From Dokdonella fugitiva (lineage in GTDB: Bacteria > Pseudomonadota > Gammaproteobacteria > Xanthomonadales > Rhodanobacteraceae), in assembly GCF_004342425.1 (NCBI RefSeq), contig NZ_SLWQ01000002.1, positions 372,001 to 436,000 on the forward strand: a stretch of DNA of 64,000 nucleotides. The letters are read 5' to 3'. Made by a program: the position numbers and the translations under genes. The notes beneath the pieces were generated by a model. That model searched no databases and was not told the origin of the DNA. It was given only the letters and a program-made list of their open reading frames with translations. The number at the start of each line of letters is the position of its first letter. Within the stretch, counting starts at the first letter, position 1. Positions 5,395 to 32,579 of the stretch are shown here, in pieces.

Positions 5395-5453
5395 GCTTTT
5401 CGAAACCGGAGTCCCGGAACGTCCGTCCCGGGACCCGCAGGCCCTTTCGGACC

Positions 5454-6644
<1,191 letters not shown>

Positions 6645-6734
6645 GACTTGCAACCTCAAAGCAGACTATTTGGACAATGCGGCCCCGCAGGGCCGCTTCT
6701 CGAAAATTCCGGCGATCCCGCGTGATCGCGCCGG

Positions 6735-14384: not shown

Positions 14385-14394
14385 GTGGATCTCC

Positions 14395-14502
14395 GGGAAT
14401 CGGGAATTGGGAATCGGGAATCGTTGGATGCGGGGAACCGGGTCCATGCGGGATCGTCGAAGCTTCTCGACGATTCCCTATTCCCGATTCCCCATTCCCG
14501 CT
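14395..14502 (-). repeat. Heptamer inverted repeat in the rpoB-rpoC gap
   Basis: Almost the whole 118-nt intercistronic gap is a long inverted repeat. In the transcript the 5' arm has four GGGAAT units in a row with one spacer base each, and the 3' arm is its complement (28 of about 31 positions pair). The loop of about 45 nt contains a nested CGTCGA/TCGACG hairpin. Four G-triplets spaced by 4 nt also fit a G-quadruplex consensus. The unit recurs at 29724-29822. Confidence 0.85.
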
Positions 14503-18672
<4,170 letters not shown>

Positions 18673-22751: not shown

Positions 22752-22879
22752 AGGCTTTTGCGATCTTCCCTGATCGCAAGGAACAGACCAGCATCCATGC
22801 TGGACATCTCACGAACAGCGATTCCGATGCGGCGACTCGTCGATTCGCTTCCGGCGAGCCGCCAACCCGGCGTTGGTTC

Positions 22880-24070
<1,191 letters not shown>

Positions 24071-24133
24071 GGCGAAAACCCCGATCTGGTGTAAACGACT
24101 GATTGGATGGCGTGGCGAAACCGACCGCTTGGA

Positions 24134-26489: not shown

Positions 26490-27025
26490 CGCGCCGCGCG
26501 GCGCGTGAAGGTGATCGTGCCGAGCGGCACTTCCTTGCCGCTCCTGGGGCCGATCGCGGTCATCGTCAGCACGCGCGTGCCGCCGCGGAACTCCTCGGTC
26601 ATGCGGTATTTCGCCGGCGGGTGCGGCTCGGGCTGGCGCAGTTCCGCCGTCCACGTCATCGTCTTCGAAGCGGCATCCCACACGCCTTCGTCGAGCCGGA
26701 TGTAGTCCGTGTTGCTGTCGACCCAGATGCCGACGTAGCGCTGCTTCCTCGGGTCGTAGCCCCAGGTGCCGTGGCCGCCGTATTTCGCGTCGACCTCGAA
26801 ATCGTTGCGGATCCAGCGCTTGCCGGTCACGAACGTATTGGTCTGCACGCCGGTCGCGCGCGTCGGCTTTTCACCCGGCTTGGCCGGCGGGAATTCGATC
26901 ACCGCGTCCCAGACGCCCTCTTCGAGCGCGAGCACGTCGAGTTCGGGGGCGCTGGCCGGCGCGGGTTCCGCTGCCCGCGCGCCGGCGGCGGCGAGCATCA
27001 AGGTGACAGCAAGGACGATGCGCAT
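26486..27025 (-). CDS. Exported DUF1579-like protein
   Basis: 179 aa with a signal peptide (MRIVLAVTLMLAAAGARA). The rest resembles small DUF1579-type beta-barrel proteins: EGVWDAVIEF, a WDAASKTMTW segment and a final GTITFTRR strand. No catalytic motif is visible and no role is assigned. The family name is a moderate guess from the pattern. It starts 113 nt after the ychF stop on the same strand. Confidence 0.75.
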   Translation of the reverse strand: MRIVLAVTLMLAAAGARAAEPAPASAPELDVLALEEGVWDAVIEFPPAKPGEKPTRATGVQTNTFVTGKRWIRNDFEVDAKYGGHGTWGYDPRKQRYVGIWVDSNTDYIRLDEGVWDAASKTMTWTAELRQPEPHPPAKYRMTEEFRGGTRVLTMTAIGPRSGKEVPLGTITFTRRAAR

Positions 27026-27138
27026 GGATTCTCCGACAGCAGCCGCGGATGCGGCGCTCGTCCAGGAGAACGCGATCGGGCGCCGGAACCTATCAGGCCC
27101 GCCGCCGGCGCACGATGCATGCGCCGGACGATCGCCGG

Positions 27139-28230
27139 TCAGACGTTGAAGCGGAAGTGCAGCACGTCGCCTTCCTGCACGACGTACTCCTTGCCCTCGA
27201 GGCGCAGGCGGCCCGCATCGCGCGCACCGGCTTCGCCCTTGTACTTGATGTAGTCGTCGTAGGCGATCGTTTCGGCGCGGATGAAGCCGCGTTCGAAGTC
27301 CGTGTGGATCACCCCGGCGGCCTGCGGCGCGGTCGCGCCCTTCTTCACCTGCCAGGCGCGCACTTCCTTCTCGCCGGCGGTGAAGTAGGTCTGCAGGCCG
27401 AGCAGCTTGTAGCCGGCGCGGATCACGCGGTTGAGGCCGGGCTCGTCGAGGCCGAGGTCCTTGAGGAATTCGTCGCGGTCGGCGTCCTCGAGCTGCGCCA
27501 TCTCCTCCTCGATCGCGGCGCACACCGGCACGACCTCGGCGCCTTCCGCGGCCGCGCGCTCGCGCACGCGGTCGAGGTGCGGGTTGTTCTCGAATCCGTC
27601 CTCGCGCACGTTGGCTATGTACATGAGCGGCTTGAGCGTGAGCAGGAACAGGTCGCGCACGAGCGCGCGTTCCTCCGCATCGAGGCCGAGACTGCGCGCG
27701 ACGCGGCCTTCGTTGAGGCCGGCGGCGAGCTTCTGCAACACCGGCCGCTTCGCCAGCGCTTCCTTGTCGTTCGCCTTCGCCGCGCGCTCGACGCGGTTGA
27801 GCGCCTTGTCGACCGACTCGAGGTCGGCGAGCGCGAGTTCGGTGTCGATCGTCTCGATGTCGGCAATCGGGTCGACCTTGTTGGCGACGTGCACGATGTC
27901 CGGGTGCTCGAAGCAGCGCACGACGTGCGCGATCGCGTCGACTTCGCGGATGTGCGCGAGGAACTTGTTGCCGAGCCCTTCGCCCTTCGACGCGCCCGCG
28001 ACGAGCCCGGCGATGTCGACGAACTCGATCGAGGTCGGGATGATCTTCAGCGGCTTGGCGATGCCGGCGAGCGCGGCGAGGCGCGGATCGGGCACCGGCA
28101 CGACGCCCACGTTCGGCTCGATCGTGCAGAACGGGAAGTTCGCCGCGGCGATACCCGCCTTGGTCAGCGCGTTGAACAGGGTCGACTTGCCGACGTTCGG
28201 CAGGCCGACGATGCCGCATTTGATGCCCAT
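27139..28230 (-). CDS. ychF: Ribosome-binding ATPase YchF
   Basis: 363 aa, an OBG-family P-loop ATPase tied to ribosomes and oxidative-stress response. Walker A is GLPNVGKST (9-17), and DIAGLV is at 72-77. The G4 motif that sets nucleotide choice is NVRE (207-210), the NxxE form of YchF/OLA1, which favours ATP over GTP. The C-terminal TGS domain is present. It is the last gene of the prs-rplY-pth-ychF run. Confidence 0.96.
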
Positions 28231-28244
28231 GGACGCGTAATTCC

Positions 28245-28333
28245 GTGATTGGTGATTCGTGATTGGTGATTCGGACGCATCGGACCTGGAGGGTGCAACC
28301 GGCTCGAATCACCAATCACCAATCACGAATCCC
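28245..28333. repeat. GTGATTS heptamer inverted repeat between pth and ychF
   Basis: The 92-nt gap is almost filled by four heptamers at 28245-28272 (GTGATTG, GTGATTC, GTGATTG, GTGATTC) and four complementary ones at 28306-28333, around a 33-nt loop. The architecture is the same as in the rpoB-rpoC and prs-rplY gaps but the unit differs. It could fold in RNA of either strand; pth-ychF transcripts would carry it. Confidence 0.85.
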
Positions 28334-28910
28334 TGCCGTTGGTGTGCAACTTCTTCATCGCCGCCTCGAACTCGCCGGCCACCGCGAGCGGCAATACGTC
28401 GAGCGAGCGCGCGATCGCGTCGAGCATGAGGTCCTCGTCGACCTTCGACGGCCGGCCCAGTACCCAGCCGCTGACGCGGTCTTTGTGGCCCGGATGGCCG
28501 ATGCCGATCCTGAGCCGGTGGAACCTGCCATGGCCGATGTGCGCGAACAGGTCGCGCAGGCCGTTCTGGCCACCGTGGCCGCCGTCGAACTTGAGGCGCG
28601 CGGTGCCCGGCGGCAGGTCCAGGTCATCGTGCACGACCAGCATCTCGTCGGGCTCGATCTTCCAGTAGCGCAGCGCCGCGCCGACCGATGCGCCGCTCGC
28701 ATTCATGTAGGTGACCGGCTTGAGCATCCACAACGGCTTGCCGCCGAGTACGATCTTCGCAGTCTCGCCGCGCAGCTTCGATTCCATGCCGAAGCGCGCC
28801 GACTCGCGCCCGGCGAGCGCGTCGACGAACCAGAACCCGGCGTTGTGCCGGGTCCTCAGGTGTTCGGCCCCGGGATTGCCGAGGCCGACGATGAGGCGCA
28901 GGCCGGCCAT
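28323..28910 (-). CDS. pth: Peptidyl-tRNA hydrolase
   Basis: 195 aa, frees tRNA from peptidyl-tRNA that drops off ribosomes. Asn12 (GLGNPG), catalytic His22 (RHNAGFWFVD), the Asp pair in VVHDDLDLPPG (about 95-96) and GGHGGQNGLRDL are present. The start MAGLRLIVGLGNPG is preferred over a Met five codons upstream. It follows rplY by 57 nt. Confidence 0.96.
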   Translation of the reverse strand: MAGLRLIVGLGNPGAEHLRTRHNAGFWFVDALAGRESARFGMESKLRGETAKIVLGGKPLWMLKPVTYMNASGASVGAALRYWKIEPDEMLVVHDDLDLPPGTARLKFDGGHGGQNGLRDLFAHIGHGRFHRLRIGIGHPGHKDRVSGWVLGRPSKVDEDLMLDAIARSLDVLPLAVAGEFEAAMKKLHTNGRDS

Positions 28911-28967
28911 GTGGCGGATACGCACGCACGCTGCCCGCGCGGACGCGGGCAGCGAAACGCAGCCTCG

Positions 28968-29645
28968 TTACTTCTTCTCGTCCTTCTTCGCCGGTGCCTT
29001 GGCCGGCGCGGCAGCGGCAGGAGCCGCGGCGGCCTCGCCCTCGGCCGGAGCCGCTTCGATCTCTTCCCTGACTTCCTTGGCGATGACGATCGCGTTGTCG
29101 TGTTCCTTGCCCAGGCGCAGCTCGGGGATCTCGACGCCCTTGGGCAGCTTGAGGTCGGACAGGTGCACGATGTCGCCGGTCTTCAGCTCGCCCAGATCGA
29201 CCTCGATGTATTCCGGCAGGTCCTTCGGCAGGCACGAGACTTCGACTTCGTTGAGCTCGTGCGTGATGACGACGCCCGACGCCTTGCCGGCCGGCGACGA
29301 TTCCTGGTTCAGGAAGTGCAGCGGCACGCGCAGGCGGATCGCTTCGTTCTCGTTGATGCGCTGGAAGTCGAGGTGCAGCACGATCTGCTTGAACGGATGA
29401 CGCTGCATGTCGCGCAGCAGCACCTTCTGCACGTCACCGCCGAGGCTGAGGTCGAGGATCGACGAGTAGAACCATTCGTTCTGGCTCGCGTGCCAGACGT
29501 CCTTGTGCTGGATCTGGATGCTGACCGGCTTGAGTTCGCCGCCGTAAACGATCGCCGGGACGTAACCAGCGCGACGCAGGCGGCGGCTCGCACCCTTGCC
29601 CTCGTCGTTGCGCTTTTCGACGTTGATGATGTGTGTGGTTGCCAT
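28968..29645 (-). CDS. rplY: 50S ribosomal protein L25/general stress protein Ctc
   Basis: 225 aa, the long two-domain (TL5/CTC) form of L25 that binds 5S rRNA. The N-terminal domain has KGASRRLRRAGYVPAIVYGG; a TL5 C-terminal beta domain follows, and the protein ends in an Ala/Glu/Lys-rich tail (AAAAPAKAPAKKDEKK). The start MATTHIINVEKRNDEGKG was chosen over a Met seven codons upstream. It lies downstream of prs across a heptamer repeat. Confidence 0.95.
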   Translation of the reverse strand: MATTHIINVEKRNDEGKGASRRLRRAGYVPAIVYGGELKPVSIQIQHKDVWHASQNEWFYSSILDLSLGGDVQKVLLRDMQRHPFKQIVLHLDFQRINENEAIRLRVPLHFLNQESSPAGKASGVVITHELNEVEVSCLPKDLPEYIEVDLGELKTGDIVHLSDLKLPKGVEIPELRLGKEHDNAIVIAKEVREEIEAAPAEGEAAAAPAAAAPAKAPAKKDEKK

Positions 29646-29723
29646 TTGTGTGTTGCCTTCTTGCAATGATGCCGCCCTGCGGCGGCGATGGCCTCTCCCG
29701 CGACCAGGAGAGGGTGAAAAAGC

Positions 29724-29822
29724 GGGGAATGGGGAATGGGGAATGGTAAAAGCAGGTTCGCGTCGCCTATTCCCTATTCCCTATTCCCTATTCCCTATTC
29801 CCTATTCCCTATTCCCCATTCC
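29724..29822 (-). repeat. GGGAATA heptamer array and inverted repeat in the prs-rplY gap
   Basis: Seven CTATTCC units and one CCATTCC lie head to tail at 29767-29822 (GGGAATA type on the transcribed strand). Three GGGGAAT units at 29724-29744 form the partial complementary arm, separated by 22 nt. In the prs transcript the second arm is followed by GCTTTTT, so the structure can act as a terminator or attenuator. Eight G-triplets with 4-nt spacing also fit a G-quadruplex consensus. Confidence 0.9.
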
Positions 29823-29826
29823 CGCT

Positions 29827-30783
29827 CTAATCCACATACAACGAACTCACCGATTCGCCGTAGGCGATGCGGCGGATCGTCTCCGCGAGCAGTTCCGCGA
29901 CCGACAGCTGGCGGATGCGGTTGCAACCGCGCGCCGCGTCCGACAGCGGGATCGTGTCGGTGACGACGAGTTCGTCGAGCGCGGAGCCCTCGATGTTCCT
30001 GATCGCCGGTCCCGACAGCACCGGGTGCGTGCAGTAGGCGACGACCTTGCGCGCGCCGTTCTTCTTCAGCGCCGCCGCCGCCGCGCACAAGGTGCCCGCG
30101 GTGTCGACGATGTCGTCGACGAGTACGCAGACCTTGTCCTTGACCTCGCCGATGATGTTCATGACGGTCGCCTCGTTCGCCCGCGGACGACGCTTGTCGA
30201 TGATCGCGAGGTCGGCGTCGTCGAGGCGTTTGGCCAGCGCGCGCGCGCGCACCACGCCGCCGACGTCGGGCGACACCACGATCAGGTTGTCCGCCGCGTA
30301 GTAGCGCCAGATGTCGGCGAGCAGCACCGGCGAGGCGTACACATTGTCGAGCGGGATGTCGAAGAAGCCCTGGATCTGGTCCGCGTGCAGGTCGACCGTC
30401 AGCACGCGGTCGGTGCCGACCACGCCGATCATCTGCGCCGCGACCTTCGCCGTGATCGGCACGCGTGCCGAGCGGGGCCGGCGATCCTGGCGCGCATAGC
30501 CGAGGTACGGGATCACCGCGGTCACGCTCGCCGCCGAGGCGCGCTTGAGCGCGTCGACGAGGGCGAGCAGTTCCATGAAATTGTCCGCGCTCGGCGCACA
30601 GGTCGGCTGCACGACGAACACGTCCTGCTTGCGCACGTTCTCCTCGATCTCGACCTGCACCTCGCCGTCGCTGAACCGGCCGACGAGCGCCTTGCCGAGC
30701 GGCACGTTGAGCTCGGCGCAGATGGAGGTCGCGAGCGCGCGATTGGCATTGCCGGCGAAGACCAGCAGGCCGGACGTATCCAT
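29827..30783 (-). CDS. prs: Ribose-phosphate pyrophosphokinase
   Basis: 318 aa, makes PRPP from ribose 5-phosphate and ATP for purine, pyrimidine, His and Trp synthesis. [10 protein letters not shown] (131-140) and the PRPP loop [13 protein letters not shown] (220-232) are intact, and the flexible-loop YARQDRR is at 96-102. The start [14 protein letters not shown] gives the family length; two Met residues further upstream are possible. It lies about 105 nt after tRNA-Gln. Confidence 0.96.
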
Positions 30784-30888
30784 GTTGGGATCCACGAGTC
30801 TGCTCCGCTGCGCCATGCCGGCGGACACCATGCTCGCCGGACCCTGCATTCCTTCAACCGAACCCGCGCGCGCACGCGCCACGCGGAG

Positions 30889-30963
30889 TGGCTGGGGCGG
30901 CAGGATTCGAACCTGCGAATGCCGGGATCAAAACCCGGTGCCTTACCGCTTGGCGACGCCCCA
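30889..30963 (-). tRNA. tRNA-Gln (TTG)
   Basis: A 75-nt cloverleaf, acceptor TGGGGCG/CGCCCCA, anticodon loop TTTTGAT (anticodon TTG), T-loop TTCGAAT, encoded CCA. It lies between ispE and prs, the arrangement found in many gammaproteobacteria. Confidence 0.97.
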
Positions 30964-31086
30964 CCATGAGCCAACTGGCATCCCGCCCTTCTGCACGAAA
31001 ACCGTCGCAGCCAGGCCGCGCCGGGTTTCCACGCCGCGTCGCTCCGCGACGCGCGGCGGTGCGTCCTGCACGCCGAAAGGCCGATC

Positions 31087-31971
31087 TCAGGTGCCCCGCC
31101 CGTCCCAGCCGCGGCGCTGCGCGAGCAGTGGCGATTCCACCACGCCTTGCGCAGGCCACGCCCGCATTCCCGGCGGGCATTCCCTCGCGATCGCTTCCGC
31201 GGCTTCGCGCGACGGCGTGGCGACGAACACGCAACCACCGCTGCCGCTCAAGCGCGCCCTTCCGTGGCGCGCCAGCCAATCCAGCGCGGACGCGACCGCG
31301 GCATGGCGTTCGCGCACGACCGGCTCGAACACGTTGACCGTGGTGGCGCCCGAAAGAAAGAGCGGGATTGTCAGATGTGCGGCATCCCGTGTCAATTCAG
31401 GCGCCTGGAACAGCGCGGCGGTCGGCACGCTCACGCCGGGGTCGACGACGACGTACCAGCTGGGCGGCAGGTCGATCGGAACGAGGCGCTCGCCGACGCC
31501 TTCCGCCCAGGCGCTTCGACCCCGCACGAACACCGGCACGTCCGCACCGAGGCCAAGGCCGAGCGCGGCGAGACGGTCCTCGCCGAGCCCGCAACCCCAG
31601 AGCGCGTCGAGCCCGACCAGGGTGCTCGCCGCGTCGGAACTGCCGCCACCGAGCCCGCCCCCCATGGGAATGCGCTTGTCGACGGCGATGTCCGCGCCCA
31701 GCCGTGTGCCGGTCGCGTCCTGCAACGCACGCGCCGCGCGCACCACGAGGTCCTGCTCCACCGGCACCCCGGGCAGCGGGGCGACGCGGCGGATTTCGCC
31801 GTCGCCGCGCAAGCGCAGGCGCACCGTGTCGCCGCGGTCGAGCAGTTGGAACACGGTCTCCAGCAGGTGGTAGCCGTCGGCGCGGCGGCCGACGATGTGG
31901 AGGAACAGGTTCAGCTTCGCCGGCGCCGGCCATTCGCTCCAGCCGGCTGCGGCGGCCGCTGGCGCCGTCAT
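31087..31971 (-). CDS. ispE: 4-diphosphocytidyl-2-C-methyl-D-erythritol kinase
   Basis: 294 aa, a GHMP kinase of the MEP isoprenoid pathway that phosphorylates the 2-hydroxyl of CDP-ME. The substrate motif PAPAKLNLFL is at 15-24, the ATP loop IPMGGGLGGGSSDAAS starts at 101, and the C-terminal SGSGGCVFVA is present. Its ATG overlaps the lolB stop (ATGA), so the two are probably co-translated. Confidence 0.96.
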   Translation of the reverse strand: MTAPAAAAAGWSEWPAPAKLNLFLHIVGRRADGYHLLETVFQLLDRGDTVRLRLRGDGEIRRVAPLPGVPVEQDLVVRAARALQDATGTRLGADIAVDKRIPMGGGLGGGSSDAASTLVGLDALWGCGLGEDRLAALGLGLGADVPVFVRGRSAWAEGVGERLVPIDLPPSWYVVVDPGVSVPTAALFQAPELTRDAAHLTIPLFLSGATTVNVFEPVVRERHAAVASALDWLARHGRARLSGSGGCVFVATPSREAAEAIARECPPGMRAWPAQGVVESPLLAQRRGWDGRGT

Positions 31972-32579
31972 GGCAGGGACCAGTCGCGAATCGCGAGGCG
32001 CACCTTGTAGTCACCGCGGCTCGCGAACACCTTGCTCGGCAGTGGCGGATCGTGCGTGGTGTCCCAGGCGAGGTAACGGACCTTCCAGCCGTCCTGCTCG
32101 ATCTGCGCGGGCAGGCCGTCAGCGCGGAATTCGATGCGCGCCTCGCCGGGGGTACGCAGGCCACGCGCCCAGTACGGCAATTGGGCCAGGGGCACCTTCC
32201 AGCCGAGTTCGCGCTCGAGCAGCGCCGTCGCGTCGTCGCCCTCCACCGCGTGCTCACGCAGGCCTTCGAGCACGGCGTGGCCGCGCCCGCCGCTGAGCAC
32301 CCAGGTCTTGCCGGTGACCGGCGCATGCACGCTGAAGCGGAAATCCTCGCCCCGCTGGCGCCACTCGAGCGAACCGCTGCCGCTGTCGCGCGCGTCGGCG
32401 ACGCCGAGGCGGCCGTGCAGTGTCCAGCCGGGGGACATCGCGAGCGCAGTCTCGCGCGCGGCCTGGCGCGCGAGCGCGTCGGCATCGGCGGGCGGCGGTC
32501 GCACGCGCGGACCGGCGCACGCGGCGAGGACGAGCAAGCCGCACAGTAGCGCGAGGCGCCGCAGGACCGGCGCGCTCAT
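31968..32579 (-). CDS. lolB: Outer-membrane lipoprotein LolB
   Basis: 203 aa, receives lipoproteins from LolA and inserts them in the outer membrane. The lipobox LVLAAC places the lipid Cys at residue 21; the LolB fold is supported by WTLHGRLGV, EWRQRGEDFRFSV and the LPYWARGL segment. It overlaps the TPR gene stop and the ispE start by 4 nt each, a tight operon. hemA is divergent upstream, the classical hemA-lolB pairing extended by one gene. Confidence 0.94.
   Translation of the reverse strand: MSAPVLRRLALLCGLLVLAACAGPRVRPPPADADALARQAARETALAMSPGWTLHGRLGVADARDSGSGSLEWRQRGEDFRFSVHAPVTGKTWVLSGGRGHAVLEGLREHAVEGDDATALLERELGWKVPLAQLPYWARGLRTPGEARIEFRADGLPAQIEQDGWKVRYLAWDTTHDPPLPSKVFASRGDYKVRLAIRDWSLP

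Follow-up and report, generated by a model that had tools for sequence, protein, structure and literature searches.

The gap between prs and rplY in Dokdonella fugitiva holds two facing arms of tandem heptamers. We consider it reasonably probable that this array is a palindromic intergenic repeat element, one arm of which has grown by slippage, which is now and then copied or replaced as a whole and which forms an mRNA hairpin behind prs. Established at the sequence level are the architecture of the element, its slot and its 7-bp period, as well as two facts about the unit: its type agrees between the two arms and differs between species. The new elements of this picture are two gaps shared across relatives, the agreement of both arms in their unit, the same architecture built from GG-only units and a 103-nt slot with swapped units. 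Throughout, "the window" is the whole stretch of 64,000 nucleotides that was analyzed.

The prs-rplY locus

The features of the window that are needed here are the following (positions are those of the window, and the basis of each call is given in parentheses).

29827 to 30882, minus strand: prs (ribose-phosphate diphosphokinase), longest open reading frame, with its stop codon at 29827 to 29829 (NF003428 over its cut-off)
29767 to 29822, minus strand: eight tandem heptamers, one GGGAATG and then seven GGGAATA, forming the 5' G-rich arm of the coding strand (sequence, Tandem Repeats Finder, shuffles, fold)
29745 to 29766, minus strand: spacer with the inner core TAAAAGC (plus strand, 29747 to 29753; GCTTTTA on the coding strand) (sequence, core-motif count)
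29724 to 29744, minus strand: three complementary heptamers, forming the 3' C-rich arm of the coding strand (sequence, Tandem Repeats Finder, shuffles)
29717 to 29721, minus strand: coding-strand T5 (A5 of the plus strand), at the base of the hairpin (sequence, fold, T-run count)
29646 to 29722, minus strand: two conserved hairpins that form a candidate leader RNA of rplY, distinct from the heptamer element although they overlap its T5 (alignment covariation, covariance model)
28968 to 29645, minus strand: rplY (bL25/Ctc, long form, 225 aa) (NF004130 over its cut-off)
28245 to 28331, minus strand: related element of GTGATTG-type units in the ychF-pth gap (Tandem Repeats Finder; pth and YchF by NCBIfam)
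14394 to 14504, minus strand: second element of the family, 4 + 4 GGGAATN units, between two long open reading frames called rpoB and rpoC in the sequence-only reading (Tandem Repeats Finder, sequence)

NCBIfam models named four genes, for ribose-phosphate diphosphokinase (prs), bL25/Ctc (rplY), aminoacyl-tRNA hydrolase (pth) and YchF. The closest rplY was that of D. fugitiva, with 96% identity. The longest open reading frame of prs probably includes residues ahead of the true start, since family-model matches set in at residue ∼35. On the minus (coding) strand, the prs stop codon is followed by one GGGAATG, seven GGGAATA, a spacer of ∼22 nt, three CATTCCC, CGCTTTTT, the conserved stretch and rplY, with the 5' arm beginning 3 nt past the stop. 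Tandem Repeats Finder reported 3.3 copies at 29724 to 29746 (100% match) and 8.3 copies at 29766 to 29823 (98%), and the double unit GGGAATRGGGAATR occurred nine times in the window versus 0 in 100 dinucleotide shuffles. Together with the sequence itself, these results confirm what had been read from the letters alone, namely, eight heptamers (29767 to 29822) facing three (29724 to 29744), with a T-run in the transcribed direction. The asymmetry of the arms also held, the rpoB-rpoC element having 4 + 4 units (4 + 5 by a tolerant count). The claim that both gaps carry the same unit stood for GGGAAT but not for the seventh base, which is mostly C at rpoB-rpoC, where GGGAATC is present; the prs-rplY units are GGGAATA and GGGAATG only. 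The RNA hairpin predicted for the prs-rplY element has a free energy of -42.3 kcal/mol, compared with a mean of -28.2 (standard deviation, 3.7) for 200 mononucleotide shuffles.

The 77-nt stretch between the heptamer element and rplY contains two hairpins with an invariant UGGUCGCG. We aligned 43 of the 80 loci of relatives with the window (44 sequences) and found that 98.2% of 660 cells pair, with two-sided changes in 73 cells. This covariation was reached by 0 of 500 shuffles, and slid controls were far lower. Under strict filters, a covariance model of the stretch matched 34 of 232 genomes of the class once each, the source genome among them, and all of the 20 loci fetched, from many families of the class, sit between prs and rplY. 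Neither the window nor the 8 of these 20 loci that were scanned gave an Rfam match to a leader; for positions 27000 to 32000, only a tRNA exceeded its gathering score, all other matches being below theirs. According to a review, features of autogenous control by bL25 are known only for species with a short bL25. The E. coli-type rplY leader goes with a short one-domain bL25 and has traits of its own (an irregular operator hairpin and a weak GAGA SD), whereas the protein here has 225 aa, matches bL25/Ctc models and differs from that type in this respect. A literature search on L25 leaders, with sources available in part, yielded only the enterobacterial one. Judged by its covariation, the stretch looks like an undescribed rplY leader, which we put forward as a candidate.

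Dispersed elements with matching arms

We then looked into the occurrence of the unit in the source genome. Two adjacent units (GGGAATRGGGAATR) were found at 93 places, versus 0 for the reversed control pattern, and a triple GGGAATN unit was found at 103 places. We fetched 29 stretches of this genome, corresponding to at least 33 clusters (the place lists totalled 114 and 103, the latter for the triple GGGAATN unit), and both arms were present in 19 of the clusters examined. Based on approximate gene calls, these two-arm elements lie between co-directional genes in 16 cases and convergent genes in 3, and never between divergent genes; the first arm is located 3 to 14 nt beyond the upstream stop codon in 11 of the 16 co-directional cases. 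A tolerant count of the units gave exactly four in 32 of 53 arms; arms of 13 to 15 units occur. The two arms differ by 0 or 1 unit in 14/19 elements, and the prs-rplY element (3 + 8) is among the most asymmetric of the 19 pairs. An AAAGC-like core was present within the first 20 nt inside the arm in 23/54 arms, compared with 5.9% of random 20-mers, and AAAGC-like letters were also found in 14/54 outer flanks on the same strand. One element of the source genome (L100, C2:17900-21300) is composite: it has 6 + 13 units, and ∼50 nt of its inner part are duplicated.

Some units carry an A opposite C, which breaks the pairing of the arms. These A-variants were found in the 5' arm of the coding strand by 16 to 1, or 9 to 1 when counted per element (two-sided sign test, ∼0.02). 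We considered their placement as a sign of selection on the RNA and rejected this idea, since the bias is opposite to the expectation for a perfect RNA hairpin.

Evaluation of two-arm elements in several genomes revealed that the unit type of one arm matches that of the other in 49 of 51 cases (20/21 in G000, 15/15 in G009, 10/11 in G005 and 4/4 in G006). Under the strict rule applied, two-arm elements came from 11 of 19 stretches of G005 and 4 of 20 stretches of G006, and the one stretch of G008 gave none. The two exceptions are a mixed GGTGATT element and a GGGATT/ATTCCC hybrid in G005 (L221), one arm of which has GGGATTC units and the other ATTCCC units; the hybrid is perhaps an intermediate of a unit swap.

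The Dokdonella genome G009 uses another unit. The triple GGTSAKY unit was found at 93 places (86 GGTSAGC and 7 GGTGATT), versus 11 for GGGAATN and 21 for GGGATTN. Its elements have an AAAAAGC/GCTTTTT core, with core motifs in 27/37 arms, and arms of four or five units are the commonest class (20/37) in a three-unit pattern search that under-samples short arms. GGTSAGC and GTGATTG units are both without GGG, and GGTSAGC has GG tracts only. Since G009 builds the same architecture from GG-only units, a three-tetrad G-quadruplex (G4) cannot be a property shared by the family.

The same two gaps in related species

We then scanned 80 loci of relatives, up to 6.7 kb each, for tandem periods, with a stricter score than in the gap-only scan. 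We found that 67 of 73 period-7 runs are located in just two gaps, pth-ychF (49 runs in 36 loci) and prs-rplY (18 runs in 12 loci), which make up 18.8 of the 502.6 kb examined (3.7% of bases). Among periods of 4 to 15, the only others in these gaps were 14 (twice 7) and 15 (a single run). The units seen there were GGGAATN, GGGATTN, GTGATTG, GGTGAGC and GGGACTC, with GTGATTG filling the pth-ychF gap in several species. The letters of the unit differ between relatives, but the 7-nt spacing and the mirrored arms stay in the same gaps, which argues that it is the hairpin, and not the G4, that persists. Period-7 arrays of several unit types occupied the ychF-pth gap in 36/79 relatives; that of one Xanthomonas (L062) contains long GGGACTC arrays facing each other, whose unit conforms to GGGANTN yet is neither GGGAATN nor GGGATTN. 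Five relatives (L031, L034, L035, L042 and L053) have further period-7 arrays upstream of prs, ∼1.2 to 1.7 kb before rplY, perhaps a third recurrent slot.

Across 80 prs-rplY gaps, window included (L058 was left out, its contig having no prs stop), the tail before rplY is constant and the slot behind prs is variable. Period-7 runs beat all 400 shuffles in 19/80 gaps, including that of the window, which has the longest run of all (score of 48, the next being 20). The surplus units are identical and confined to one arm, which supports the slippage that had been proposed for this locus: the eight-unit arm looks like the product of one-sided slippage. In species that have no heptamers, the slot often folds into a hairpin of another kind. 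At the level of the order, the triple GGGAATN unit was found in 41 of 200 sampled genomes (40/195 at the quality cut).

A pair of close relatives captures the change of unit. Over 6.6 kb, D. immobilis (L043) shares 91% identity with another Dokdonella (L028); their slot flanks are 94% and 96% identical, and the slot from the prs stop to the leader motif has 103 nt in both, yet both arms are made of GGGAAT units in the former and GGGATT units in the latter. In G009, 5 of 14 spacers share sequence, and their flanks have only short scattered matches that we took as background (the best, with an E of 2.5e-5, covers 55 nt at 78% and lies away from any element), which suggests that whole elements are sometimes copied. 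Spacers of the source genome showed no sharing beyond 17 nt, so copying as a unit is seen only in G009.

No exact triple units of GGGAATN, GGGATTN or GGTSAKY were found in G001, the species nearest to the window. At seven orthologous gaps, G001 has other sequence and no clean empty sites, and its ychF-pth gap contains a decayed heptamer-like stretch. Where the source genome has heptamers at the L101 site, G001 has another palindrome, of the CCCTCTCCC/GGGAGAGGG type. G001 also served to show that positions 5448 to 6645 and 22879 to 24071 of the window each match a second place at 97%, so that the window has two near-identical 1.2-kb copies, which are probably the two tuf genes.

Origin of the array and relation to known repeats

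We propose that an element has two arms, one of about four heptamers and the other of about four complementary heptamers, between which a short AAAGC-like core faces its complement, and that it usually sits just behind the stop codon of the upstream gene, ahead of the next co-directional gene. In the prs-rplY mRNA, it would form a long hairpin just behind prs, which would mainly shield the prs 3' end and would separate it from the rplY leader. Slippage of 7 bp during replication would have lengthened one arm of an ordinary four-unit element to eight units. Whole elements would now and then be copied or replaced, and such an event would swap the unit in both arms at once. With slightly less than even confidence, we extend this proposal to the Lysobacterales, in which the heptamer itself would be replaceable and the 7-bp period, the mirrored arms of about four units, the AAAGC-like core and the fixed slot behind particular stops would be kept, the unit being swapped in both arms at once, either through replacement in place or through ectopic conversion among dispersed copies. 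If so, abundant intergenic heptamers of bacteria would be hairpin elements, whose units are supplied by slippage and whose G4 potential is incidental. The same period and palindrome with differing units in the same gaps separate the G4, hairpin and pure-slippage hypotheses, and L028 versus L043 (GGGATT versus GGGAAT) and the GG-only units of G009 provide natural tests.

Several points count against this proposal: the bias of A-variants to the coding 5' arm (against selection of an RNA hairpin), the predicted preference for a fold with a G4, the presence of the core in fewer than half of the source-genome arms, the two mixed elements, the other sequence in place of clean empty sites in G001 and the unshared spacers of the source genome. 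Part of this evidence suits a purely mutational origin, in which 7-bp slippage and palindrome-driven correction between arms would act where they do little harm, after stop codons, and yield functionless arrays. Such an origin would account for the near-exclusive use of period 7 and its double in the two gaps, for the arms of 13 to 15 units, for the mismatching A-variants kept mostly to one arm and for the lack of exact triple units of the three patterns in G001; slippage as a source of heptamers is also discussed in the Xanthomonas study of Rehm 2015 (PMC4692102), as far as its available text goes. We nevertheless regard it as unlikely, given that the same two gaps, the only slots compared across species, are used across an order although they represent so few of the bases, and that another hairpin often occupies the slot where heptamers are missing.

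Alternatively, the array could terminate or attenuate transcription and thereby set the prs/rplY ratio, an improbable role in our view. In the RNAfold prediction, AGCGGG pairs with CCCGCU just ahead of the U-run, so the T5 makes a terminator at prs-rplY possible, and in Xanthomonas, repeats able to form a G4 coincide more often with transcript starts or ends (Rehm 2015, partial text). However, a terminator scan with a loop limit of 8 found none in the element, whose arms and loop are long, and a T-run follows the 3' arm only here among the 16 co-directional two-arm elements of the source genome. In relatives with heptamers in the prs-rplY slot, the hairpin is followed by TTT at most (read by eye), and rplY retains its own conserved structure just downstream. 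The terminator-like arm of the sequence-only reading keeps its U-run after a stem, and termination as a family function, which we considered, is not supported, since the trait is limited to one of these 16 elements; a putative attenuation of transcription running on into rplY would be peculiar to the prs-rplY element with its T5. A G4 switch, in which the G-rich strand of the DNA or mRNA folds into G4s and thereby explains the family and its four-unit preference, as proposed for GGGAATC in Xanthomonas, appears quite improbable. It draws on circular dichroism data for repeat oligonucleotides and the four-unit preference in the accessible part of Rehm 2015, on the same preference in the source genome and on the fold predicted with G4 allowed (-48.2 versus -42.3 kcal/mol), in which the surplus G-tracts form a G4 above the base of the hairpin. 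Against it, the G009 arms found most often have four or five units and are made mainly of GG-only GGTSAGC, several species fill the pth-ychF slot with GTGATTG, and the facing arm competes for pairing. The strong G4 consensus claimed for (GGGAATR)8 is formally there (four G3 tracts, short loops), but is unlikely to be the reason for the array, and the G4 modeled in the surplus units may form but would be incidental. We hold it very improbable that the elements are REP/BIME-like or MITE-like and moved in trans by a transposase. The shared spacers of G009 favor this, but no Y1 transposase (PF01797) was found at an E value of ≤0.001 in G009, despite its 93 array places, and one each was found in G001, G007 and G011, in none of which the three patterns gave an exact triple unit. 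The single Y1 transposase of the source genome (C2:93955) is away from every listed array. A Y1 (RAYT) mover, which does not track the arrays, was therefore dropped.

The preferred reading, a palindromic element with replaceable units, places the prs-rplY locus in a known kind, as GGGAATC heptamers including inverted pairs have been described in Xanthomonas. The accessible text of Rehm 2015 reports 186 and 183 repeats, with 70 inverted (convergent) pairs in Xcc and 75 in Xac, a preference for four units, and a gene context that is conserved while the repeat length changes. The elements here likewise consist of G-rich heptamers, lie in intergenic regions, mostly between aligned genes and near behind a stop codon, prefer four units, form inverted pairs and differ in length between species. 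The heterogeneous (GGGANTN)n described there also covers the GGGAATN, GGGATTN and GGGACTC units of our relatives. Two or more tandem GGGANTN units, as used in that study, are present at prs-rplY (8 and 3), but the study also asked for at least one GGGAATC, which this locus does not have. Compared with the set as described in that text, the change of unit from species to species in the same slot, the AAAGC-like inner core and the GGTSAGC and GTGATTG units outside GGGANTN are features of the elements here.

REP/BIME and MITE elements (PMC2817692, PMC3686654; partial texts) are similarly dispersed intergenic palindromes that are partly copied as units, but the arms here are tandem heptamers of variable number, and we found no link to a Y1 transposase. 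In the part available of the SPADE paper (PMC6344855), heptamers rank first in abundance among the intergenic tandem repeats of widely differing prokaryotes, and the paper sees no clear hint of their function. These heptamers and the TAACTGA repeats of Beggiatoaceae (PMC4679880, partial text) share the period of 7 and the intergenic location with the elements studied here. Apart from one inverted case, TAACTGA occurs as direct repeats ahead of start codons, whereas inverted arms are common in the present elements.
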